Positions 19,070 through 29,903 of a DNA stretch of 64,000 bases are shown here, piece by piece. The notes beneath the pieces are model-generated. The model ran no database searches. It was not told the DNA's origin and saw only the letters and a list, made by a program, of their open reading frames with translations. Both the position numbers and the translations under genes were made by a program. The stretch lies in assembly GCA_021413845.1 (NCBI GenBank), contig JAIOPP010000115.1:1-64000 (forward strand), in the 5' to 3' direction. This DNA is from Planctomycetia bacterium. GTDB taxonomy: Bacteria > Planctomycetota > Planctomycetia > Pirellulales > PNKZ01. The stretch's first letter is position 1. Each line of letters begins with the position of its first letter.

Positions 19070-19439
19070 CGAGCGGTTACCTAGATATCGGCGAAAAGCG
19101 GGACGGCTTACTCGAATTGCGTGGGGATAAGCCGCACGACCAGCACGACTTTATAAAGCGAACGGCCGGATTATTCCATGCTCGCGAGGAGCATCTACTT
19201 CATCCCCCAAACGACTGCATAGCCGAGCGGCGGCCGGCCGACGTTTGTGACACCAGTCGAGGTAAAGGCGCATAGCGACTGTCGTGTCAAATGAACTTTC
19301 TCGGATTTCGTCCGCACCGAGCGCCATGAATTCGTCGGTCACCTCACTGCCTATCGTGCGCTCGCTGGCGACGGAGCGACGAAACGATATACTACCGGAC
19401 GCTTCGATTGCGATGCCGCGAAATGAGGGAGCGTTAAAC
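19070..19439. other. Divergent intergenic region, histidine kinase / respiratory operon
   Basis: These 370 bases separate the kinase start (19069) from the subunit II start. On the plus strand TATACT at 19388-19393, with a poor CTGGCG -35 17 bases upstream, is a candidate promoter 46 bases before the GTG at 19440. On the minus strand TATAAA (19155-19150) could serve the kinase. In-frame ATGs at 19284 and 19413 upstream of subunit II have no ribosome-binding site and encode no recognisable sequence. No RNA gene or repeat is evident. Confidence 0.4.
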
Positions 19440-20462
19440 GTGGATGCCGTCGGTCCATGGATGCTTCTGGCAGACGATTGCACGACGGAGAATCTCTCGA
19501 TCTTCGATCCGGTGTCGCCTCATGCGCGGGCGATTGCGAACCTGTCGAACCTGGTGTTCGCCGTCACGGGATTGATCTTCATCGTCGTCTGCGGAATTCT
19601 GCTCTATTCGCTTTGGCGATTTCGTAGTCGGCCCGACGACCCGAGCACGGAGCCGGCTCAGGTTTATGGAAGCCAACCGATCGAAGTCGCGTGGACCGTC
19701 GCTCCGGCGCTCATCGTGTTCTTTCTGGTGCTCATCACGACGCGCACATTGTGGGACGTGAATGCCGATCCGCCGCTGCCGCACCCCAACGACGGCGCAT
19801 TATTCGTTACGGTCGTCGGCCGGCAATGGTGGTGGGAATATCGCTACGAAACTTACGATGGTCGGCCGCTCGGCTTCGTCACAGCCAATGAACTGCACAT
19901 ACCGGCAAGCGAACCGGGAACGGAACGACCGGTCTATCTGAAGTTGGAATCAGCCGACGTCTGCCATAGCTTTTGGGTGCCGCGGCTGGCGGGAAAAGTC
20001 GACCTGATCCCCGGCCGCACGAACAGACTGACGCTCGTTGCCGAAGAGCAGGGGACCTACCTCGGTCAGTGCGCCGAGTACTGCGGAACGCAACACGCCA
20101 ACATGTTGATCCGCGTCGTCGCCCAGAACCCGGCCGACTTCGATTCTTGGCTGGCGAATCAAAGTCTGCCGGCGCGCGAAGATCCGGCGATGAGCGAAGG
20201 CAAACAGGCGTTTCTCGCACAATCGTGCATCAATTGTCATCGCGTGCGAGGCACGCCGGCACAAGGGGGCTACGCACCGGATCTGACTCATCTAATGAGT
20301 CGACAGACGTTGGCTTCGGGCCAGATTAAGAATACGCCGGAAGACTTAAACCATTGGGTACGCGACCCGCAGCAGATCAAGCCCGGCAGCCTGATGCCGG
20401 CGTTCGGCTTGCCGACTCGCGACCACGACCTAATCGTTCGCTATTTGAATTCGTTGCATTAA
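19440..20462 (+). CDS. coxB: Cytochrome c oxidase subunit II fused to cytochrome c (caa3 type)
   Basis: The GTG at 19440 is chosen because GAGGGAG (19425-19431) sits eight bases upstream; in-frame ATGs at 19284 and 19413 lack such a site, and ATG 19461 is an alternative. The protein has 340 residues. Two transmembrane helices (about 36-58 and 84-104) precede the cupredoxin domain. The WWWEYRYE motif and all CuA ligands are present: H176, C211, E213, C215, H219 and M222. A C-terminal cytochrome c domain carries C263-I-N-C266-H267 with M319 as likely axial ligand. This makes a caa3-type oxidase that receives electrons through its own haem c. First gene of the respiratory operon; subunit I follows after 55 bases. 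Confidence 0.95.
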   Translation: MDAVGPWMLLADDCTTENLSIFDPVSPHARAIANLSNLVFAVTGLIFIVVCGILLYSLWRFRSRPDDPSTEPAQVYGSQPIEVAWTVAPALIVFFLVLITTRTLWDVNADPPLPHPNDGALFVTVVGRQWWWEYRYETYDGRPLGFVTANELHIPASEPGTERPVYLKLESADVCHSFWVPRLAGKVDLIPGRTNRLTLVAEEQGTYLGQCAEYCGTQHANMLIRVVAQNPADFDSWLANQSLPAREDPAMSEGKQAFLAQSCINCHRVRGTPAQGGYAPDLTHLMSRQTLASGQIKNTPEDLNHWVRDPQQIKPGSLMPAFGLPTRDHDLIVRYLNSLH

Positions 20463-20517: not shown

Positions 20518-22191
20518 ATGTCTCTCGCCGATCCATCTCGCTCGCTCGAACAGTCGCGGTTGCCGGTGGGCACGGCAACTAGGCCGACAGCGACGACGGT
20601 ATTGCATGAATGGATCACGACGGTCGATCACAAGCGCGTCGGGATCATGTATGTGCTGCTGAGCCTGGTGTTCCTCGTGATCGGCGGCATTGAAGCGCTG
20701 TTGATGCGTTGGCAACTGCTCGCTCCGCGTAGCGATTTCCTCGGGCCGGACACATTCAATCAATTGTTCACGATGCACGGCACCACGATGGTCTACTTCG
20801 TGGGAATGCCGATTCTGATCGGAATCGGCAACTATCTGGTACCGCTGATGATCGGAGCGCGCGACATGGCGTTCCCTCGCCTGAACGCCTTCGGCTTTTG
20901 GATTACGTTGTTCGGCGGCTTGCTTGTGTACTCCAGCTATGCCACGGGAGGCGCTCCGGCGATCGGCTGGTTCGCTTACGCCCCGCTGACGGAACGAACC
21001 TTCGCGCGCAGCGCGGCGACCGACTTTTGGGCGCTGGGATTGATCGTCAGCGGCATCGGGTCGCTGACCGCGGCGATCAACTTCATCGCCACGATTCTCG
21101 CGCTCCGCGCGCCCGGCATGACGATGCGGAAGATTCCGTTCTTCGTTTGGACGATGCTTTGGACGTCGTTTCAGATCTTAATCGCAGTGCCGCCGCTGAC
21201 CGCCGCACTTTCGATGATCATGCTCGATCGCCAGTTGGGGGCGCACTTCTTCGATGTCCAAAACGGCGGCTCCGCATATCTGTGGCAGCATTTGTTTTGG
21301 TTCTTCGGCCATCCCGAAGTCTACATTCTGATCTTGCCGGTGTTCGGCATGGTTTCGGAAATCATTCCCGTCTTCTCGCGCAAGGTGCTGTTCGGCTACG
21401 AGTTCATGGCCGCGGCCACGTTGGCGATCGCGTTCATCAGCCTCGGAGTGTGGTCGCATCACATGTTTTGCGTCGGGATGAATCGTACGCTCGATCTCTA
21501 CTTCGCCGCGGCCAGTTTGCTGGTCTCGATTCCCACCGGCATCAAGTTCTTCAACTGGCTTGCGACGATGTTCGGCGGCCGCATTCGTTTTCAATCGCCG
21601 ATGTTGTTCGTCTGCGGTTTCCTGTCGCTGTTTCTCATCGGCGGGTTGACCGGCATCATGCTCGCCGTCGCACCGTTCGACTTCCAACTCTCCGACAGCT
21701 ACTTCGTCGTCGGCCACTTTCATTGGGTGCTCATCGGCGGCACCCTCTTCGGCACTTTCGCCGGCATCTTTTATTGGTATCCGAAAGTGACCGGACGGAT
21801 GCTTTCCGAGCGGTTGGCGAAGTGGCAATTCTGGTTCCTTTTCTTCGGTTTTATTTTGACGTTCGGCCCGATGCATGTGGCCGGCTTCCTCGGCATGCCG
21901 CGGCGCATTTACACCTACGACGCCGATCGTGGCTGGACGATTTGGAACCAACTAACGACGCTCGGCGCGCTCGTCCAAGTGCCGAGCTACGCGATCTTCG
22001 TCTACAACGTCGTCGCTTCTCTATGGAACGGGAAACCAGCCGGCGACGATCCCTGGAACGCCTGGACTTTGGAATGGGCGACGACGTCCCCTCCGCCGTC
22101 TTACAACTTCGAGGAAATTCCAACCGTCTATAGCCGGCGTCCTTTGTGGGACATAAAACATCCCGACGATCCCGATTGGTTGTACGAATGA
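20518..22191 (+). CDS. ctaD: Cytochrome c oxidase subunit I
   Basis: A 557-residue haem-copper oxidase catalytic subunit with about twelve hydrophobic helices. All cofactor ligands are visible: H87 and H402 for low-spin haem a, H400 for the high-spin haem, and H265, H314 and H315 for CuB. Y269, which crosslinks to the CuB histidine, is in GHPEVYI. The E in that motif (E267) places it in the A1 group of proton-pumping oxidases. It reduces oxygen to water at the binuclear centre in the cytoplasmic membrane. The N-terminal 25 residues are extra and polar. No ribosome-binding site is obvious before the ATG. The stop overlaps the start of subunit III (ATGA), indicating translational coupling. Confidence 0.97.
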   Translation: MSLADPSRSLEQSRLPVGTATRPTATTVLHEWITTVDHKRVGIMYVLLSLVFLVIGGIEALLMRWQLLAPRSDFLGPDTFNQLFTMHGTTMVYFVGMPILIGIGNYLVPLMIGARDMAFPRLNAFGFWITLFGGLLVYSSYATGGAPAIGWFAYAPLTERTFARSAATDFWALGLIVSGIGSLTAAINFIATILALRAPGMTMRKIPFFVWTMLWTSFQILIAVPPLTAALSMIMLDRQLGAHFFDVQNGGSAYLWQHLFWFFGHPEVYILILPVFGMVSEIIPVFSRKVLFGYEFMAAATLAIAFISLGVWSHHMFCVGMNRTLDLYFAAASLLVSIPTGIKFFNWLATMFGGRIRFQSPMLFVCGFLSLFLIGGLTGIMLAVAPFDFQLSDSYFVVGHFHWVLIGGTLFGTFAGIFYWYPKVTGRMLSERLAKWQFWFLFFGFILTFGPMHVAGFLGMPRRIYTYDADRGWTIWNQLTTLGALVQVPSYAIFVYNVVASLWNGKPAGDDPWNAWTLEWATTSPPPSYNFEEIPTVYSRRPLWDIKHPDDPDWLYE

Positions 22192-22817
22192 GCGCAGCGC
22201 CGCCGAATATCGCCGTGTTTCCCACTCCGCCGTCGATTACGTCGGAGCCGAATCTGAACGGCCCGCAATGGGGTATGGTCGCGTTTCTAGTTTCGGAATT
22301 CGCGTTCTTCAGCACGCTCTTGGTCGCGTACGTCACGTTCATGGGGCAAGACACCCACGGCCCGACGCCGGCCGAAGCGTTGTCGCTGCCGCTGGTTGTC
22401 GGCAACACTTTATGCCTGTTGTTGAGCAGCGTCGTGATTCATCACGCCGAGAAAGCGCTCGACTCCGGAAGCCAAACGAAGTTCCGACTTTGGTGGCTGG
22501 CGACGATCATCCTCGGCGGCGTGTTCCTCGCAGGGACCGCTTACGAATGGCACGACCTGATCGTCCACAAGCGATTGACGATTAGCCGTAATCTCTTCGG
22601 CACCTCCTTCTTCACGCTCGTCGGCTTCCACGCTCTGCACGTCTCCATGGGTGTGATCGCGATGCTGATCGTGTTTGGCTTGGCGATGCGCGGCGAAGTC
22701 GCCGGCCCAAGGCATACCGGCGTTCAGCTGATCGCTTGGTATTGGCATTTCGTCGATGTGGTGTGGGTCGCGGTGTTTCTGCTCGTCTACGTGATCGGCA
22801 GGAGCACCGGCGCATGA
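22188..22817 (+). CDS. ctaE: Cytochrome c oxidase subunit III
   Basis: A 209-residue membrane protein starting at an ATG that overlaps the subunit I stop by four bases. The length and five predicted helices fit the short bacterial subunit III. Recognisable segments are FLVSEFAFFSTLLVAY, TLCLLLSSVVIHHAEKA, the TAYEWHDLI region and the final GVQLIAWYWHFVDVVWVAVF, split here as YWHFVDVVW and FLLVYVIG. It stabilises the catalytic subunit and contributes to oxygen and proton access. A longer frame from 22146 would read into the subunit I coding region and is rejected. The next gene again overlaps by ATGA. Confidence 0.95.
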   Translation: MSAAPPNIAVFPTPPSITSEPNLNGPQWGMVAFLVSEFAFFSTLLVAYVTFMGQDTHGPTPAEALSLPLVVGNTLCLLLSSVVIHHAEKALDSGSQTKFRLWWLATIILGGVFLAGTAYEWHDLIVHKRLTISRNLFGTSFFTLVGFHALHVSMGVIAMLIVFGLAMRGEVAGPRHTGVQLIAWYWHFVDVVWVAVFLLVYVIGRSTGA

Positions 22818-24115
22818 CTCTCGAACCTCCCGCCGCTCAGGAATCCGCCGGAGTCGACATGCCTGCGCCGACCGCGGCACCGCTGGTGTTGTCGTTGGGG
22901 ATCGTCCTCATGGCGGCCGGCGTGGCGACGAACATGGCGTTTCTATTAACGGGCGGCGTGTTGTTCGTCGTCGGTCTGGGCCGGTGGATCTCGCAGCTCT
23001 TGCCCCATCGCGGACACTGCCGCGAGGCGCTCGTCGAGCCGGCGCTCCGACCACGACCGGTGGTCGTCGAGCCGGGAGCCGTCGAACGGATGCGGCGCGG
23101 AATGCCGGGCTATCGGCTCCGGTTGCCGGAAAAAGTCCATCCGCTGTCGGCAGGCGTCAAAGGGGGAATCGTCGGCGGCTTGGTCATGCCGTTGCCGGCT
23201 TTGGTATACGGTGTTCTGAGCGGTCGCGGTATCTGGTATCCGATCAATCTTCTCTCGGGCATGCTGCTGCCGAACGTCGGTGATCTGAGCGTGGCCGAGC
23301 TTGAGCGATTCAGCCCGTCGCTCTTGCTGATCGGCGTCGTCATCCATGCGACGATCTCGTTGATGCTCGGCTTGATCTATGGCGTGTTGATGCCGATGCT
23401 CCCGCACCTGGCAAGGCCCATCGCTTGGGGCGCATTGCTCATGCCTTTGCTCTGGACGGCGGTAAGCTATAGCGTTTTAGGCGTCGTCAACCGGACGATT
23501 CGCGGATACATCGAATGGCCGTGGTTCGTATTATCGCAATTGATCTTCGGCGTCACGGCGGCGATCGTCTTCATGAGAATGTCGCACCGTAATCGTTACA
23601 TGGCCGGCTTCCTCGGCGGACTCATCGGCGGCGCAATAATGCCGATCCCCGCTGTGCTGTGGAGCTTGCTCATGAAACACGGCATTTGGTATCCGGTGAA
23701 TCTCCTGGCGGCGATGGGTTATCCGAACCCCGGCGAATTGTCGATCGAACAGTTGGAAAGCTTTCATCCCACCTGGCTGGCTTTCGGCGTCGCCGTACAT
23801 CTCGCGTTGACGATCTCCTTCGGTTTGGCGTTCGCGTTGGTGTTGCCGCGAATGCCGTCCATTCCCGGGCCGATTGCTTGGGGCGGACTACTCATGCCGC
23901 TCTTATGGACCGCCTCCAGCTACGGTTTGATGGGGGTCGTGAATCCCGTGTTGCAGCAGCGTGTCGATTGGGCGTGGTTCGTGGTATCGCAATTCGTATT
24001 CGGCGTCGTCGCGGCGATCGTCGTGGTCCGGAGCGAAGAGGTTCACATTCCGCCGGCAGGACGAGGTGCCGAGCGGACCGATTACATCGCTAGTGATCCC
24101 GAGGCGCAAGCGTGA
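22814..24115 (+). CDS. Internally duplicated integral membrane protein of unknown function in the oxidase operon
   Basis: The ATG at 22814 overlaps the subunit III stop by four bases; the frame opens earlier, at 22736, inside subunit III. The protein has 433 residues. Residues about 20-62 hold two hydrophobic helices, in the place where small oxidase subunit IV-like proteins often sit. A soluble proline/arginine-rich stretch follows (65-108). Then come two homologous membrane halves, about 116-256 and 267-407, aligned at a constant 151-residue offset: GIWYPINLL/GIWYPVNLL, IAWGALLMPLLWTAVSY/IAWGGLLMPLLWTASSY, GVVN/GVVN, WFVLSQLIFGV/WFVVSQFVFGV. H178 and H329 fall at matching positions. I do not recognise a characterised family. 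Position between oxidase and reductase genes suggests a supercomplex or assembly role (inference). Confidence 0.85.
   Translation: MTLEPPAAQESAGVDMPAPTAAPLVLSLGIVLMAAGVATNMAFLLTGGVLFVVGLGRWISQLLPHRGHCREALVEPALRPRPVVVEPGAVERMRRGMPGYRLRLPEKVHPLSAGVKGGIVGGLVMPLPALVYGVLSGRGIWYPINLLSGMLLPNVGDLSVAELERFSPSLLLIGVVIHATISLMLGLIYGVLMPMLPHLARPIAWGALLMPLLWTAVSYSVLGVVNRTIRGYIEWPWFVLSQLIFGVTAAIVFMRMSHRNRYMAGFLGGLIGGAIMPIPAVLWSLLMKHGIWYPVNLLAAMGYPNPGELSIEQLESFHPTWLAFGVAVHLALTISFGLAFALVLPRMPSIPGPIAWGGLLMPLLWTASSYGLMGVVNPVLQQRVDWAWFVVSQFVFGVVAAIVVVRSEEVHIPPAGRGAERTDYIASDPEAQA
23159..24034 (+). repeat. Tandem duplication inside the membrane-protein gene
   Basis: Two units of about 140 codons (23159-23581 and 23612-24034) encode homologous membrane segments at a constant spacing of 151 codons (453 bases), with no insertion or deletion between aligned motifs. 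The similarity is much clearer in protein than in DNA, so the duplication is old. Confidence 0.85.
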
Positions 24116-24891
24116 CCGCTTCCCACGAACGACGATCGCGATGGTTCGCCAAGGCACCACTAGCGTGTGCGCTTGCGGCTCTACTTTCGCTAGCGCTCGC
24201 AGGCTGTGAATTTCCAGGCCAACCCGATCCGGCCGATCGACCGATTCCGGAAGATCAACAACTCGATTTCGGCTTACTCTTTCAGCGTAACTGCGCGGGC
24301 TGCCACGGCGCCGAAGGCAAACTGGGGCCGGCACCGCCGCTGAACGACGAGCTCTTCCTCACGATCATCCCCGACGCCGATTTACTTTCCTTAATTCGTA
24401 GCGGCCACAAGGGGACGCCGATGCCTGCGTTCGCACAAGCCAACGGCGGCCCCCTTACCGAAGCTCAGGTGTCGGCACTCGCGACCGGCTTGAAGCAACG
24501 GTGGAAGCCTGCATCCCCCACCTCCGCAATGCCGACGACAAGCGTGCTACCTCCATATCGCTCGCCTCTTGCCGAAGCCGGAATAACCAAGAAAGGCGAT
24601 CCGGTGCGCGGGGCGCAACTTTTTGCGAAGGCCTGCGCCGAATGTCATGGAGCAGACGGAAAAGACGTCGATCTTACGATTCACGATCCCGATTTTCTCA
24701 CGCTCCTCAGCGATCAAGTTCTACGGCGCATCGTCATCACCGGCCGTTCCGATCTCGGGATGCCAAGCTATGCAGGCACCGAGGGTCGATCGGACGACTT
24801 CCAACCTTTGACATCGACGGACATTGACGATGTCGTGGCGCTGCTCGCCGCATGGCGGCGCGGCCCTCTCAGCAAGAGCGAGCTCAAGTAA
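24112..24891 (+). CDS. Dihaem cytochrome c lipoprotein
   Basis: The GTG start at 24112 overlaps the previous stop by four bases (GTGA). The 259-residue protein has an N-terminal signal ending in the lipobox LALAG-C32, so it should be lipid-anchored facing the periplasm. Two class I cytochrome c domains follow: C61-A-G-C64-H65 with M104 (TPMPAF) as likely axial ligand, and C175-A-E-C178-H179 with M217 (LGMPSY). It probably shuttles electrons between the cytochrome b-c complex and the caa3 oxidase encoded on either side (inference from position). A proline/threonine linker (about 133-152) separates the domains. Confidence 0.93.
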   Translation: MTASHERRSRWFAKAPLACALAALLSLALAGCEFPGQPDPADRPIPEDQQLDFGLLFQRNCAGCHGAEGKLGPAPPLNDELFLTIIPDADLLSLIRSGHKGTPMPAFAQANGGPLTEAQVSALATGLKQRWKPASPTSAMPTTSVLPPYRSPLAEAGITKKGDPVRGAQLFAKACAECHGADGKDVDLTIHDPDFLTLLSDQVLRRIVITGRSDLGMPSYAGTEGRSDDFQPLTSTDIDDVVALLAAWRRGPLSKSELK

Positions 24892-24893
24892 GC

Positions 24894-25478
24894 ATGACGG
24901 ACTACAAGATGGTACAACTCACATCCGCTCTGCCGCCGGTGCCGCCGTGCATCGCATCGATTCCGCCGTCTGCTCCGCGCCGCTCCTTCCTGCGCTGGAT
25001 CACCGGCCTTTGCGGCACCGTGGCAAGCGCGGTCTTAGGGCTACCGCTGGTCGGCTACTTTCTCGCGCGACGAAAACGAGAAGTCGCCTGGGTCAGCCTA
25101 GGCTCGATCGAAGACTTCCCGGTGAACGAAACGCGCATGATTATGTTCGATAGCCCGTTGCGGCAGCCGTGGGACGGCATGACGGCGCACACCGGTGTTT
25201 ATGTCCGCTACGAAGGTCGCGACGAACAGTCCGTCGACCGGTTCTTGGTGTTGGCCGTGAATTGCGCGCATCTCGGTTGCCCGGTATCGTGGTTTCCGCA
25301 ATCGGGCCTGTTCATGTGTCCGTGTCATGGCGGCGTTTACCATGCGAACGGAGAACGTGCGTCGGGCCCTCCGCCGCGCGGAATGTTTCACTGTGTCTGG
25401 CGCATTCAAGACGGTCGACTCCAGGTTCAAGCCCCGCACTACCCAACGTTGCAAGACACGCTCGACGGCACGGTCTAA
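24894..25478 (+). CDS. Rieske [2Fe-2S] protein of quinol:cytochrome c reductase
   Basis: The ATG at 24894 is two bases after the preceding stop; an earlier in-frame ATG at 24852 lies inside the dihaem cytochrome gene. The protein has 194 residues. A twin-arginine-like anchor (PRRSFLRWITGLCGT, 28-42) leads a single transmembrane helix. The cluster-binding motifs are complete: C124-A-H126-L-G-C129 and C142-P-C144-H145-G. By analogy the ligands are C124, H126, C142 and H145, and C129-C144 form the disulfide. It extracts an electron from quinol and passes it to a c-type haem. The tail (ASGPPPRGMFHC) fits the proline loop. Cytochrome b follows after 62 bases. Confidence 0.95.
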   Translation: MTDYKMVQLTSALPPVPPCIASIPPSAPRRSFLRWITGLCGTVASAVLGLPLVGYFLARRKREVAWVSLGSIEDFPVNETRMIMFDSPLRQPWDGMTAHTGVYVRYEGRDEQSVDRFLVLAVNCAHLGCPVSWFPQSGLFMCPCHGGVYHANGERASGPPPRGMFHCVWRIQDGRLQVQAPHYPTLQDTLDGTV

Positions 25479-25540: not shown

Positions 25541-27037
25541 ATGGTCGGAATGCTCAAAACGATCGGCAACTGGCTCGACGCGCGTGTCGGATTTCGCGAG
25601 ACGTTCTGGCCGATGCTGCGGCATCCGGTTCCGCGCTCGCTCGAAGGTCCGATGGGCTGGTGGTATGTCTTCGGCAGCGCGTCGATGACGCTGCTGCTGA
25701 TTCAAATCGTCACCGGCATCGGCTTGGCCTTGGTCTATGTCCCCGCGGCGGACCAAGCTTACGAAAGCTTGTTGTTCCTCGACTACCGGCAGCCGCTCGG
25801 CTGGTTTTTGCGGGCCCTGCACTACTACGCGGGCTCCGGCATGGTGGTCATGTTGCTCATCCATATGACGCAAGTATTCCTCCACGGTGCGTATAAGTAC
25901 CCGCGCGAATTGACATGGACCGTCGGGGTCGTGCTGTTGCTTTGCACGCTCGGCATGTTTTTTACCGGCCAGATTCTCCGCTGGGATCCGGACGCTTACT
26001 GGGGCCTAGCGGTTGCCGGCTCGATGGCGGGCCGCGTGCCGATCATCGGCCCGGAAATAGTGCATGGGTTGTTGGGGGGCGACGTGATCGGGGGAGATTC
26101 GTTGAGCCGGTTTTTCGCGCTGCATGTGTTCGTGATCCCGGCGGCATTGTTCGCGTTCTTGGCGTTGCATTTGTGGCTGGTGCTGAAGTGCGGCATCAGC
26201 GCGCCGCCGGTGCCTGGCATCATAGTCGACCCAAAAACATATGACGCGGAATATGAGAAGGAGTTGAAGACGGGCGTTCCGTTCTTCGGCGATGCGCTGC
26301 TGAAAGACATACTGTTCTCTTCGCTGACCGTGATCGCGGTGGTGGCACTCGCCGCGATTCTCGGCCCTAAGGGACCGAGCGGCCCGCCCGACCCGACGCT
26401 CGGCGGCGTGAACCCGCGCCCAGAGTGGCCGTTCTTGTGGCTCTTCGGCTTGCTTTCTCTAAGTCCGCCTAGCGCAGAGACGTTTATCATTCTCGCCTTT
26501 CCGGTGCTCGTCATCGCGGCTTTGTTTTTAGTGCCGGTCGTCAGCAACCGCGGAGAGCGAGCACCAAGTCGGCGACCGATCGCGGTGCTGATCGTGATCG
26601 TAACGTACACGGCTTTGGGCGCGCTCACTTATGAAGGGATCACGTCTCCCTGGTCGCCGAAGATGACGGCTTGGAGCGGCGATCCGATTCCCGAACGGAT
26701 CGTGTTGCAAAGCACGCCGCGACGATTGCTGGGAGCGGTCGTGTTTCAGAATAAGAACTGCCGCAACTGCCATGCGCTCGACGGCCTCGGCGGCACGCGC
26801 GGACCTGATCTATCGACCATCGGCACGCGCTTGACACGCGATCAACTTATCGATCAGGTCAGCAACGGCACGCCCGGCGGCGGCAACATGCCGGCTTACG
26901 GGGGCCGAATCAACCCGGCCGAGATGGCGCTGCTGGTCGACTTCATGGTCGGCCTGCGGTCTCCGAATCAACCACCGGCGGAAGCATACGGCTTATCGCC
27001 GACGGTAGAAACGAAGGAGGCCGCGAAGAAACCATGA
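25541..27037 (+). CDS. Cytochrome b with C-terminal cytochrome c domain
   Basis: The ATG at 25541 has GAGGA ten bases upstream; the frame opens at 25169 within the Rieske gene. The product has 498 residues. The N-terminal four-helix part carries the bis-haem ligands H94-x13-H108 and H195-x14-H210. The x14 spacing in the second pair is that of b6-type cytochromes. The C-terminal helices include PRPEWPFLW (293-300), where the usual Qo-site PEWY has become PEWP. No cysteine is found near residue 40 for a covalent extra haem. After about residue 385 a monohaem cytochrome c domain follows: C407-R-N-C410-H411 with M450 as likely axial ligand. It therefore replaces a separate cytochrome c1. Its stop overlaps the next ATG. 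Confidence 0.93.
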   Translation: MVGMLKTIGNWLDARVGFRETFWPMLRHPVPRSLEGPMGWWYVFGSASMTLLLIQIVTGIGLALVYVPAADQAYESLLFLDYRQPLGWFLRALHYYAGSGMVVMLLIHMTQVFLHGAYKYPRELTWTVGVVLLLCTLGMFFTGQILRWDPDAYWGLAVAGSMAGRVPIIGPEIVHGLLGGDVIGGDSLSRFFALHVFVIPAALFAFLALHLWLVLKCGISAPPVPGIIVDPKTYDAEYEKELKTGVPFFGDALLKDILFSSLTVIAVVALAAILGPKGPSGPPDPTLGGVNPRPEWPFLWLFGLLSLSPPSAETFIILAFPVLVIAALFLVPVVSNRGERAPSRRPIAVLIVIVTYTALGALTYEGITSPWSPKMTAWSGDPIPERIVLQSTPRRLLGAVVFQNKNCRNCHALDGLGGTRGPDLSTIGTRLTRDQLIDQVSNGTPGGGNMPAYGGRINPAEMALLVDFMVGLRSPNQPPAEAYGLSPTVETKEAAKKP

Positions 27038-29325
27038 GCCCGACGCTCGATGCTTTTCTTCGTTCATGGCCGTGGAATCCGTGGCTCGCGGCCGCGATGT
27101 TGCTGAATGCCGGGCTCTATCTTCGCGGTTGGCGCGTGCTGCGCCGTCGCGATCCGCGCCGCTGGACTTTCGGACGGCTCACAGCCTTCTTCGGCGGGCT
27201 TGCGGCGATCTACCTCGCGCTCGCTTCGCCGGTCGAACCGTTTGCGGCGCTGTTGTTGCAAGTTCACATGGTGCAGCACCTGCTGCTGATGATGGTGGCT
27301 CCGCCGCTCCTTTGGCTCGGTGCGCCGTTGCTGCCCATCGTGCGCGGTCTGCCGGAGCCTGTGCGCACGTACTGGGCGGCGCCGTTGCTGCGTCACCGGG
27401 GGTTGCGACGCTTGTTCTCGAAGTTGGTTTCGCCGTGGATCGCCGGGCCGGCGTACGTTGCGACAACTTGGTTCTGGCACTTTCCACGTAGCTACGAGTT
27501 GGCTTTAAGTCGCGATGATTGGCATTTCGCCGAGCACGTTTGCTTCATCTTGAGTGCGCTGTTTTTTTGGTATCCGATCGTGCGACCTTATCCCAGTCGG
27601 CCGCGCTGGTCGACTTGGCTGCTGCTGCCGTATCTGCTCTTGGCCGATATTCAAAATACGGTGCTTGCGGCATGGCTCACTTTTTCCGACAAGGTGCTCT
27701 ATCCCTACTACGAGCAAGTGCCGCGTATCGCCGGCATCTCGGCGCTCGAAGATCAAGCAACGGCCGGGGTGCTCATGTGGGTGCCGGGCTCCGTCGCTTT
27801 TCTGTTGCCGTTGTTCTGGATCGGACTACGGCTGCTCTTTCCGACATCGCCCGCATCAAAATCGCGACTGCAACTTCCGATTCTCCACGTGCCGCCGGCA
27901 ACGCCGCTGGATCTGCTGCGCATACCATTTCTAGGTTCGTTATTGCGTCGACGAGCGACGCGCCGCGCCGCGCAAGCGGCATTAGCTTTTTTAGCGATCA
28001 CGGTTATCTACGAGGGGCTCTACGGTCCGCAAATCGGGCCGATGAACTTGGCCGGCGTGTTGCCGTGGATTCATTGGCGCGGCGTTTTGATTCTCGGTTT
28101 GCTCATCGTCGGCAACGTATTTTGTTTCGCGTGTCCTTTCACGTTGCCACGAGCGCTGGCTCGGCGACTACTGCCGAACGGTCGAACCTGGCCGCGCTAC
28201 TTGCGCAGTAAATGGCTTGCCGTCGGGCTCACTCTGTTGTTCTTATGGAGCTACGAGGCATTCGCCTTATGGGACAGCCCCTGGCTCACGGCCTGGATCG
28301 CGCTTGCCTACTTCGTCGGAGCGTTCGTCATCGACTCCTGGTTTCGAGGAGCGCCGTTTTGCAAGTACGTTTGCCCGATCGGTCAGTTCAACTTCGTGCA
28401 ATCGCTCGTCTCGCCGCTCGAAGTAACTGTTCGTGAGCCGTCGCTGTGCCATTCTTGCCGCACGCACGACTGCATTCGGGGCAACGATGCCGCCGGGGGT
28501 TGCGAGTTGCACTTGTTTCAGCCACGAAAGATCGGAAATCTCGATTGCACGTTCTGCCTCGACTGCGTGCGCGCTTGCCCCCACGAGAATGTCGGGATCT
28601 TAGCCACCGTTCCAGGCCGAACGCTCTGGAGCGATCCGCTTCGTTCGGGCATCGGCCGACTTAGCCATCGGCCCGACCTTGCAACCCTCGTGCTGGTGCT
28701 CGTGTTCGGCGCGTTCGCCAATGCCGGGGGAATGGTGGCGCCGGTGGTCGAATGGCAAGACCGGTTGCGCGACTCTCTCCGCGGCGTTTCGCAATTGCTT
28801 GCGACGAGCGTTTACTATCTGGTGGCACTCATCGCCATACCGTCAGGGCTCGTCGTCGGTGCGGCTATGCTAAGCCGCACGCTGAGTCGATCGAAGGAAA
28901 GTATCCCGACCCTCATCGTTCGCTATTCGTATGCGTTTGTTCCGATCGGGTTCGGGATGTGGCTGGCACACTATAGTTTTCACTTCTTCACCAGCTACGA
29001 CACGATCATTCCCACGACGCAGCGTTTCGCCGCAGGCATCGGCTGGTTCAACTTCGGCGAACCTCAGTGGCAATACTCTTGCTGCCGGCCGGCCGTGGCG
29101 TGGATTCCGCAACTGGAAACGCTCATGCTCGATTGCGGCTGGCTGCTTTCGCTTTACACAGGCCTGCGCATCACCGAGGCTCATGCGACTGATAACAACC
29201 GCGCCACGCAAACCATCAAGGCATTCGCGCCTTGGGCGCTGCTGATCTCGCTATTATTCTTGGTAGGTGTGTGGATTATCTTTCAGCCGATGCAGATGCG
29301 CGGCACGCTTCCGGCCGGCGGCTAG
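27034..29325 (+). CDS. Fusion of caa3-type CtaG assembly factor and NapH/CcoG-like polyferredoxin
   Basis: A 763-residue multi-helix protein; its ATG overlaps the cytochrome b stop by four bases. Residues 1-270 match the caa3-oxidase assembly factor CtaG (HMVQHLLLMMVAPPLLWLGAP at about 78-98, WFWHFP, DIQNTVLAAWL). Residues about 300-530 match membrane polyferredoxins: CFACP (C364, C367), CKYVCPIGQ (C443, C447), then a cluster set C472, C475, C480, C490 and a full 4Fe-4S set C505, C508, C511, C515 followed by PHENV. Four to five further helices end the protein, including CC at 683-684 and a histidine pair region near 646-650. CtaG helps build the copper centre; polyferredoxins of this type handle electrons or copper. 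Joining both suggests a reductive metallation factor (inference). Confidence 0.85.
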   Translation: MSPTLDAFLRSWPWNPWLAAAMLLNAGLYLRGWRVLRRRDPRRWTFGRLTAFFGGLAAIYLALASPVEPFAALLLQVHMVQHLLLMMVAPPLLWLGAPLLPIVRGLPEPVRTYWAAPLLRHRGLRRLFSKLVSPWIAGPAYVATTWFWHFPRSYELALSRDDWHFAEHVCFILSALFFWYPIVRPYPSRPRWSTWLLLPYLLLADIQNTVLAAWLTFSDKVLYPYYEQVPRIAGISALEDQATAGVLMWVPGSVAFLLPLFWIGLRLLFPTSPASKSRLQLPILHVPPATPLDLLRIPFLGSLLRRRATRRAAQAALAFLAITVIYEGLYGPQIGPMNLAGVLPWIHWRGVLILGLLIVGNVFCFACPFTLPRALARRLLPNGRTWPRYLRSKWLAVGLTLLFLWSYEAFALWDSPWLTAWIALAYFVGAFVIDSWFRGAPFCKYVCPIGQFNFVQSLVSPLEVTVREPSLCHSCRTHDCIRGNDAAGGCELHLFQPRKIGNLDCTFCLDCVRACPHENVGILATVPGRTLWSDPLRSGIGRLSHRPDLATLVLVLVFGAFANAGGMVAPVVEWQDRLRDSLRGVSQLLATSVYYLVALIAIPSGLVVGAAMLSRTLSRSKESIPTLIVRYSYAFVPIGFGMWLAHYSFHFFTSYDTIIPTTQRFAAGIGWFNFGEPQWQYSCCRPAVAWIPQLETLMLDCGWLLSLYTGLRITEAHATDNNRATQTIKAFAPWALLISLLFLVGVWIIFQPMQMRGTLPAGG

Positions 29326-29354: not shown

Positions 29355-29903
29355 ATGCACTCGCCGGCTTCTATTTCGATTTTGGTTTGCATCTTGTTCG
29401 GCCCGCTATGCGGCATCTTGCAGGCCGATGGTGGGACGCTCCGGCTCGTCGAGCAACAAGGGAAATACCGAGTCTCGATCTTCACGTCGCCGAATCCGTT
29501 GCGAGCCGGACCTGTCGACATCAGCCTGTTCGTGCAAGAGGCCGACACCGCGCAACCCGTGCCGGAGGCACAAGCGACGGTCATCGTGACACCGAGCGAC
29601 GGCGTCGGCCCCTCCTCGCAAAGCCCGGCCACGACGGAAGCCGCGACGAATAAGCTTTTGCGAGCCGCGTTGTTCGACCTTCCGACGGCAAATAAATGGG
29701 ATGTCGAAATTCAATGTGAAGTCGACCGCGAACGGATCGTCGGGCGTTTCACGATGGAAACCGTGGAACCGCTGCCGGCGTGGCTTAGCGTTTGGCCTTG
29801 GTTCTGTTGGCCGCTCGTCGCGATTTTTCTTTTCGGCTTGCACCGGCTATTCGTCGCTCGCAAGCCGGCGGGTCGAGATCGAACGCCGCATCGTGTAAGT
29901 TAA
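29355..29903 (+). CDS. Small membrane-anchored periplasmic protein, FixH/YtkA-like (tentative)
   Basis: The ATG at 29355 gives 182 residues with a Sec signal (SISILVCILFGPLCGILQ). A beta-rich domain follows (YRVSIFTSPNPLRAGPVDISLFV), resembling the FixH/YtkA immunoglobulin-like fold by pattern only. A C-terminal helix (SVWPWFCWPLVAIFLFGLHRLF) anchors it in the membrane. An earlier start at 29232 lies inside the preceding gene. It follows the CtaG fusion by 29 bases and is the last gene of the respiratory block. FixH-like proteins assist copper or oxidase assembly, which would fit, but similarity is weak and no metal-binding motif is visible. Confidence 0.62.
   Translation: MHSPASISILVCILFGPLCGILQADGGTLRLVEQQGKYRVSIFTSPNPLRAGPVDISLFVQEADTAQPVPEAQATVIVTPSDGVGPSSQSPATTEAATNKLLRAALFDLPTANKWDVEIQCEVDRERIVGRFTMETVEPLPAWLSVWPWFCWPLVAIFLFGLHRLFVARKPAGRDRTPHRVS

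Follow-up and report, generated by a model that had tools for sequence, protein, structure and literature searches.

A CtaG-type protein fused to a membrane polyferredoxin in a caa3 oxidase operon of Planctomycetota

Introduction

CcoG is a demonstrated bacterial cupric reductase, and its loss lowers cbb3 oxidase (reviewed in PMC7558416). To be loaded, oxidases may require a localized cupric reductase; Bacillus subtilis has no CcoG homologue, and a 2026 study of this organism, which points out that Firmicutes are without CcoG, discusses an unidentified step of Cu(II) reduction (PMC13344008). Proteins of the Caa3_CtaG family, typified by B. subtilis CtaG, are encoded together with the oxidase; no structure of a caa3_CtaG existed in 2021 (PMC8239418). 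Fusions of CtaG as such are known, the protein being joined to CopD in Corynebacterium glutamicum CtiP (PMC9145763; PMC13344008), and a planctomycete Sco-CtaM fusion has been mentioned (PMC13344008). Here we analyse a 64,000-nucleotide stretch of contig JAIOPP010000115.1 (assembly GCA_021413845.1, Planctomycetia bacterium), called the window below, in which a single gene of a caa3-type oxidase operon (positions 27034 to 29325) encodes CtaG, a NapH/CcoG-like polyferredoxin and a C-terminal His/Met membrane module in one chain. All features of the window described in this work lie on the plus strand.

Results

Three modules in one open reading frame

The fused gene is a single open frame of 763 codons whose ATG, preceded by an AGGAGG-like sequence, overlaps the stop of the upstream cytochrome b gene as ATGA (4 bp). 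An earlier note, made from the sequence alone, had described residues 1-270 as CtaG-like. This was borne out by a match to the Pfam family PF09678 (Caa3_CtaG) over residues 28-266 (E 2.5e-57; 194 bits, cut-off 27.7; model positions 2-233 of 237), which together with conservation and topology delimits the CtaG module (27115 to 27831). The protein does not reach TIGR02737, the strict equivalog of B. subtilis CtaG, scoring 42.6 bits against an NCBIfam cut-off of 279. The polyferredoxin module, residues 298-546 (27925 to 28671), holds the interface cysteines C364, C367, C443 and C447 and eight ferredoxin cysteines arranged in two predicted [4Fe-4S] sets, C472/475/480/490 and C505/508/511/515 (28447 to 28578). 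The earlier note had listed 443/447 and these two sets, and all of its positions are exact in the translation. Two parts were absent from it: an earlier CxxCP motif, C364xxC367P (28123 to 28134), placed at the cytoplasmic face of the membrane from cysteine positions, conservation and the alignment with CcoG, and a third membrane module, residues 547-763 (28672 to 29322), with M567, H646, H650, M753 and M755 on its predicted periplasmic side and a Cys683-Cys684 pair in a periplasmic loop (29080 to 29085).

Conservation follows the modules closely. None of the 12 Fe-S and interface cysteines varies among 47 aligned fused proteins, and in the CtaG part H78, M79, H82, H149, H164, H168, D240 and M248 are likewise invariant. 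The same holds in the C-terminal part for M567, H646, H650 and M753 (47/47), while M755 is kept in 46 and the pair C683-C684 in 39 of the 47.

An AlphaFold2 (AF2) model built from a 50-row alignment had a mean pLDDT of 90.5, values being low only in linker residues 274-286 and at the C-terminal end. From its helices we read 16 transmembrane segments and an outside N-terminus; lysines and arginines number 38 in the 248 residues of predicted inner loops and 11 in the 137 residues of outer loops. In this model the candidate copper ligands of CtaG and the C-terminal His/Met and Cys-Cys residues are predicted to face the periplasm and the ferredoxin cysteines the cytoplasm. The outer-face aspartate and conserved histidines that characterize CtaG (D240, H78, H82, H149, H164, H168), present in all fused rows, are placed outside by this topology; invariant Asp and His residues of this kind, like the family match and the linkage to an oxidase, are common to the fusion and B. 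subtilis CtaG, from which the fusion differs by some 500 extra residues of polyferredoxin and C-terminal module. A Foldseek search of the whole model against the PDB gave no match at E<=0.001, and sequence searches of the PDB, with the single protein or the alignment, returned nothing beyond chance ferredoxin pieces.

The fusion is genuine and likely arose once

Scanning species genomes and the order, we recovered 48 loci in which CtaG and polyferredoxin are fused in one frame, their products sharing 43-68 percent identity with the window protein. Most hosts are Planctomycetota, from many families, and others are Verrucomicrobiota; single metagenome-assembled genomes (MAGs) labelled Acidobacteriota and Deltaproteobacteria also carry the fusion, as do complete genomes such as that of Lacipirellula limnantheis. 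One record titled Klebsiella pneumoniae (CAMBZJ010000014.1; L051) contains the fusion with a whole planctomycete-type operon and is most likely a mislabelled MAG. A missed frameshift near residues 280-300, against which the earlier note had warned, was looked for and no break was found; the linker between the two halves measures 55-143 residues among fused loci. With 48 loci showing one open frame and identical Fe-S cysteines, the fusion is genuine and not a frameshift artefact. At two further loci it is broken in the assembly, by runs of N in L057 and by frame breaks in L058. The same note had also raised the prospect of a common, already described fusion. The first part holds, the fusion being fairly common in Planctomycetota, but no description was found in the literature searched, a search that left subscription papers and preprints outside its scope; domain-architecture databases may list it with no remark. 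The fusion with a polyferredoxin thus appears to be undescribed, CtaG fusions as such being already known from CopD.

In a tree of CtaG sequences, fused and standalone forms lie one branch apart (SH-aLRT 96), and a tree of the Fe-S module accounts for the fused forms with one or two changes, making it likely that the fusion arose once. Other genomes of the order have a similar operon with a standalone CtaG gene between COX3 and the Rieske gene, whereas the fusion follows cytochrome b. Within the genus of the window, both the fusion and CtaG of any kind are absent from three genomes (G012, G043, G071), which makes the operon patchy even at this level.

Counts of CcoG, fusion and CtaG were made over 147 genomes of the order. 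CcoG occurs in 0 of the 26 fusion genomes and in 12 of the 18 whose CtaG stands alone (Fisher p 9e-7; fusion genomes against all other genomes of the order, p 0.014), figures that ignore the kinship of the genomes and include some partial assemblies among the 26. The window's own genome has no match to the CcoG model TIGR02745 and no Cox11; its one CtaG is the fusion, and a Sco with a DUF420/CtaM-like gene lies beside a second A-type oxidase. The genes of this oxidase, with CtaA, CtaB, Sco and DUF420, are split over two contig ends (C12/C20). A different contig (C132) carries a cbb3 oxidase with a copper-ATPase-like gene and no CcoG (L093-L095 cover both oxidases).

Likeness to CcoG, NapH and CtiP

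The earlier note had called the second half NapH/CcoG-like. Of curated models, the NCBIfam model NapH/MauN (TIGR02163) is the best match, covering residues 352-519 (E 1.6e-7) at 31 bits against a cut-off of 213. The fusion shares with NapH/MauN two 4Fe-4S sets and twin motifs, C364xxC367P, one residue shorter, and C443xxxC447P; it differs by this low score, by being joined to CtaG and by the lack of NapG or NapA in the operon. With CcoG/FixG/RdxA it has in common a CxxCP...CxxxCP membrane core, the only part alignable with CcoG (hhalign E 1e-6), as well as two cytoplasmic ferredoxin-type clusters and a tie to a heme-copper oxidase. That oxidase is of cbb3 type for CcoG and of caa3 type for the fusion. 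The CcoG family has a C-terminal periplasmic Ig-like domain, absent from YccM-type homologues; the fusion has a helical His/Met membrane module in its place and a separate Ig-like gene downstream. Membership in CcoG itself was rejected, since the best-scoring fusion relatives reach 24 bits against 317 with TIGR02745, the Ig domain is absent and NapH/MauN is the curated model that the protein matches.

In CtiP, too, CtaG is naturally joined to a copper-handling membrane part. There, CtaG is C-terminal and its partner is the CopD copper-import domain, whereas in the window protein CtaG is N-terminal and its partner is the polyferredoxin.

The polyferredoxin and C-terminal module occur without CtaG

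The recurring partners of the module, those of forms not fused to CtaG included, provide the main argument for a link to copper. In one set the lone module is flanked on one side by a YtkA gene (PF13115) and on the other by a gene related to the Ig-like one that follows the fusion. In a more distant set the module is fused to YHS domains; in L064 a SCO1 gene lies two genes downstream. Elsewhere (L075) a relative of the module is preceded by a domain that among solved structures best matches the CuA domains of COX2 (E 0.003). All 50 alignment rows, including three YtkA-type and one YHS-type unfused forms, keep M567, H646, H650, M753 and R756. The partners of the module thus come repeatedly from copper biology (YtkA, YHS, CuA-like and, for the fusion, a CrdA/P19-like fold described below), which strengthens the copper link of the fusion, although each link taken alone is of moderate weight. 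An unfused module was also found in a genome without any CtaG, and another genome (G072) carries a standalone CtaG in its cox operon (L084) and an unfused module elsewhere (L073).

Some further features of these loci were recorded. The YHS-bearing forms (L031, L066-L070) have one or two N-terminal YHS domains, and some of their clusters include NapG/NapH-like genes and Ig-like proteins of the AHH...GLPH type. The gene at L075:4823-6844 (minus strand) encodes a COX2-CuA-like domain with CxxxCGxxH, followed by a distant module relative without the C-terminal His/Met residues. Upstream of YtkA and the unfused module there is a small His-rich membrane protein without a Pfam match (L027:21-755, L061:3436-4200, L062:303-1049, L071, L072, L074), possibly a further copper-handling part.

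The operon and its oxidase

The fusion is the eighth gene in a run that begins with COX2 bearing a C-terminal cytochrome c domain (19284 to 20462), COX1, the CuB subunit (20518 to 22191), and COX3 (22146 to 22817), and continues with a membrane protein of no recognised family (22736 to 24115), a diheme cytochrome c (24112 to 24891), a Rieske protein (24852 to 25478) and a cytochrome b with a C-terminal cytochrome c domain (25541 to 27037); an Ig-like gene follows the fusion. The cytochrome c domain of COX2 identifies the oxidase as caa3 type, and COX2 and COX1 are the likely clients, in agreement with the placing of the gene by the earlier note in the operon of its client. The bc1-caa3 gene order is conserved, each cox/bc gene being present in the 17-18 loci long enough to show it, and cytochrome b lies directly upstream of the fusion in 38 of 44 loci. 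The membrane protein at 22736-24115, without a Pfam or NCBIfam match, is conserved with the operon, being kept in all 18 loci that extend over this region; it has 459 amino acids and is internally repeated here and in close relatives, and measures about 240-280 in most others.

An Ig-like partner downstream

Directly downstream of the fusion in 44 of 47 loci lies a gene (29355 to 29903) for a protein with an N-terminal hydrophobic segment, an Ig-like domain and a C-terminal transmembrane helix, as read from AF2 and Foldseek. The domain is modelled with eight strands (AF2 92.3). In Foldseek its nearest match is the copper resistance protein CrdA of Helicobacter pylori (E 3e-5), followed by a DUF4426 protein of unknown function and then by the copper-binding periplasmic proteins FetP and FtrA-P19 (from E 2e-4); identity to P19 structures is 6-10 percent. 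What the partner would share with YtkA/CtaK, CrdA and FetP/FtrA-P19 is a predicted membrane-anchored Ig-like fold. It differs from them in having no Pfam match, YtkA PF13115 included (an iterated profile alone reaches a PF13115-like protein, E 0.001), and no invariant His, Met or Cys, which makes copper binding by this protein putative.

In four verrucomicrobial loci (L042, L044, L045, L047) the Cys-Cys pair is gone from the loop of the fusion and a PPCCSM motif is present in the Ig-like partner. A complementary placing of the motif is a lead only, as these loci form one clade, including two near-identical pairs, and five others (L051, L053, L055, L056, L059) have Cys-Cys in neither protein.

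Discussion

We propose that the fusion is a dedicated caa3 assembly factor of its own operon that combines a Cu(II) reductase with a Cu(I) insertion factor, a proposal to which we give about an even chance of being correct. Electrons from a cytoplasmic donor would enter the two cytoplasmic [4Fe-4S] clusters, pass the four membrane-interface cysteines (C364/C367/C443/C447) and reduce Cu(II) at the periplasmic His/Met site of the C-terminal module (M567, H646, H650, M753, M755), perhaps helped by the CC loop or by the Ig-like protein. The resulting Cu(I) would then reach the His/Met/Asp site on the periplasmic side of CtaG, and the CtaG module may place it into CuB and perhaps also CuA. Computation shows the fusion with its conservation and operon, a predicted sidedness and partners of copper type; copper binding, the course of the electrons, Cu(II) reduction and transfer from module to module are inferred.

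Several points weigh against this proposal. The cytoplasmic clusters are probably too far from the periplasmic copper site for one electron hop, which calls for a further relay, such as a heme at conserved histidines or a third cluster at C364/C367/C443/C447, or for a site deeper in the membrane; no relay cofactor was identified in the fused protein. The curated match is to NapH, a protein of quinol oxidation, and not to CcoG, distant relatives of the module sit in Nap-like or molybdo-enzyme clusters, and the Ig-like family offers no invariant metal ligand. The contrast in CcoG occurrence rests on related genomes. Finally, standalone CtaG works unfused in relatives, so that there is no general need for reduction in cis.

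In the strongest rival, a quinol-oxidising carrier of NapH type supplies a thiol or general reductant, preparing the apo-oxidase through reduction of periplasmic disulphides or of the cysteines of Sco or CuA, with no reduction of copper. The NapH/MauN match, the two CxxCP/CxxxCP motifs arranged as in NapH, the NapG/NapH-like and SCO1 genes adjoining distant unfused relatives, and conserved residues that could serve a quinone (E408/R349/R756) are all as this rival would have them. We nevertheless consider it unlikely: the NapH match falls far under the cut-off, the partners are copper proteins (YtkA, YHS, CuA-like, CrdA-like fold), and the conserved outer-face set consists of His and Met and not of a thiol pair, the CC pair being absent from the unfused forms inspected.

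Somewhat less probable still is that the two halves have separate jobs in oxidase assembly, CtaG inserting CuB and the polyferredoxin serving maturation in some unrelated way, with equal dosage or co-localisation as the sole reason for their fusion. The linker is long, variable and modelled with low confidence, and both parts occur apart in other planctomycetes, even within one genome (G072). Set against this, the two parts seem to have been joined once, long ago, and to have stayed together throughout Planctomycetota and Verrucomicrobiota, and the soft ligands of both parts lie on the same predicted face of the membrane.

A metal uptake system like FtrABCD or FetMP, with iron or copper taken in by a P19-fold protein together with a polyferredoxin, would account for the predicted fold of the Ig-like partner, and FtrD is a polyferredoxin. 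PMC11966278 does not describe FtrD in these terms. We regard such a system as quite improbable here, given the 6-10 percent identity to P19 structures, the absence of a recognised Ftr1-type permease from the cluster, and the constancy of CtaG and oxidase genes as neighbours of the module in fusion loci. The Fe-S module might instead gate CtaG's insertion of copper by sensing redox state or oxygen, as low-potential membrane clusters could sense oxygen; with no regulatory domain, an unfused module in a genome without CtaG, and conserved periplasmic ligands left unexplained, this has an even slimmer chance. The joining of two genes through a lost frameshift can be dismissed, single-frame loci coming from many assemblies, complete genomes included, and the sole breaks (L057, L058) being runs of N or assembly frame errors.

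A broader version of the reductase-insertase proposal may be entertained, tentatively and with less confidence than the proposal itself: the module would represent an undescribed, widespread class of copper-linked polyferredoxins that pass electrons across the membrane to copper at a C-terminal periplasmic His2/Met site, and the CtaG-fused members would replace CcoG as cupric reductase for caa3 oxidases in Planctomycetota and Verrucomicrobiota. Copper would then be reduced and inserted by one periplasm-side protein, with no passage through the cytoplasm.

The reductase-insertase proposal touches two questions, the mechanism of caa3-type CtaG and the existence of a dedicated reductase for heme-copper oxidases outside the CcoG/cbb3 route. 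A fusion of CtaG with a CcoG/NapH-like carrier joins both steps and names residues to mutate, and its presence in cultured organisms such as L. limnantheis makes the question testable.

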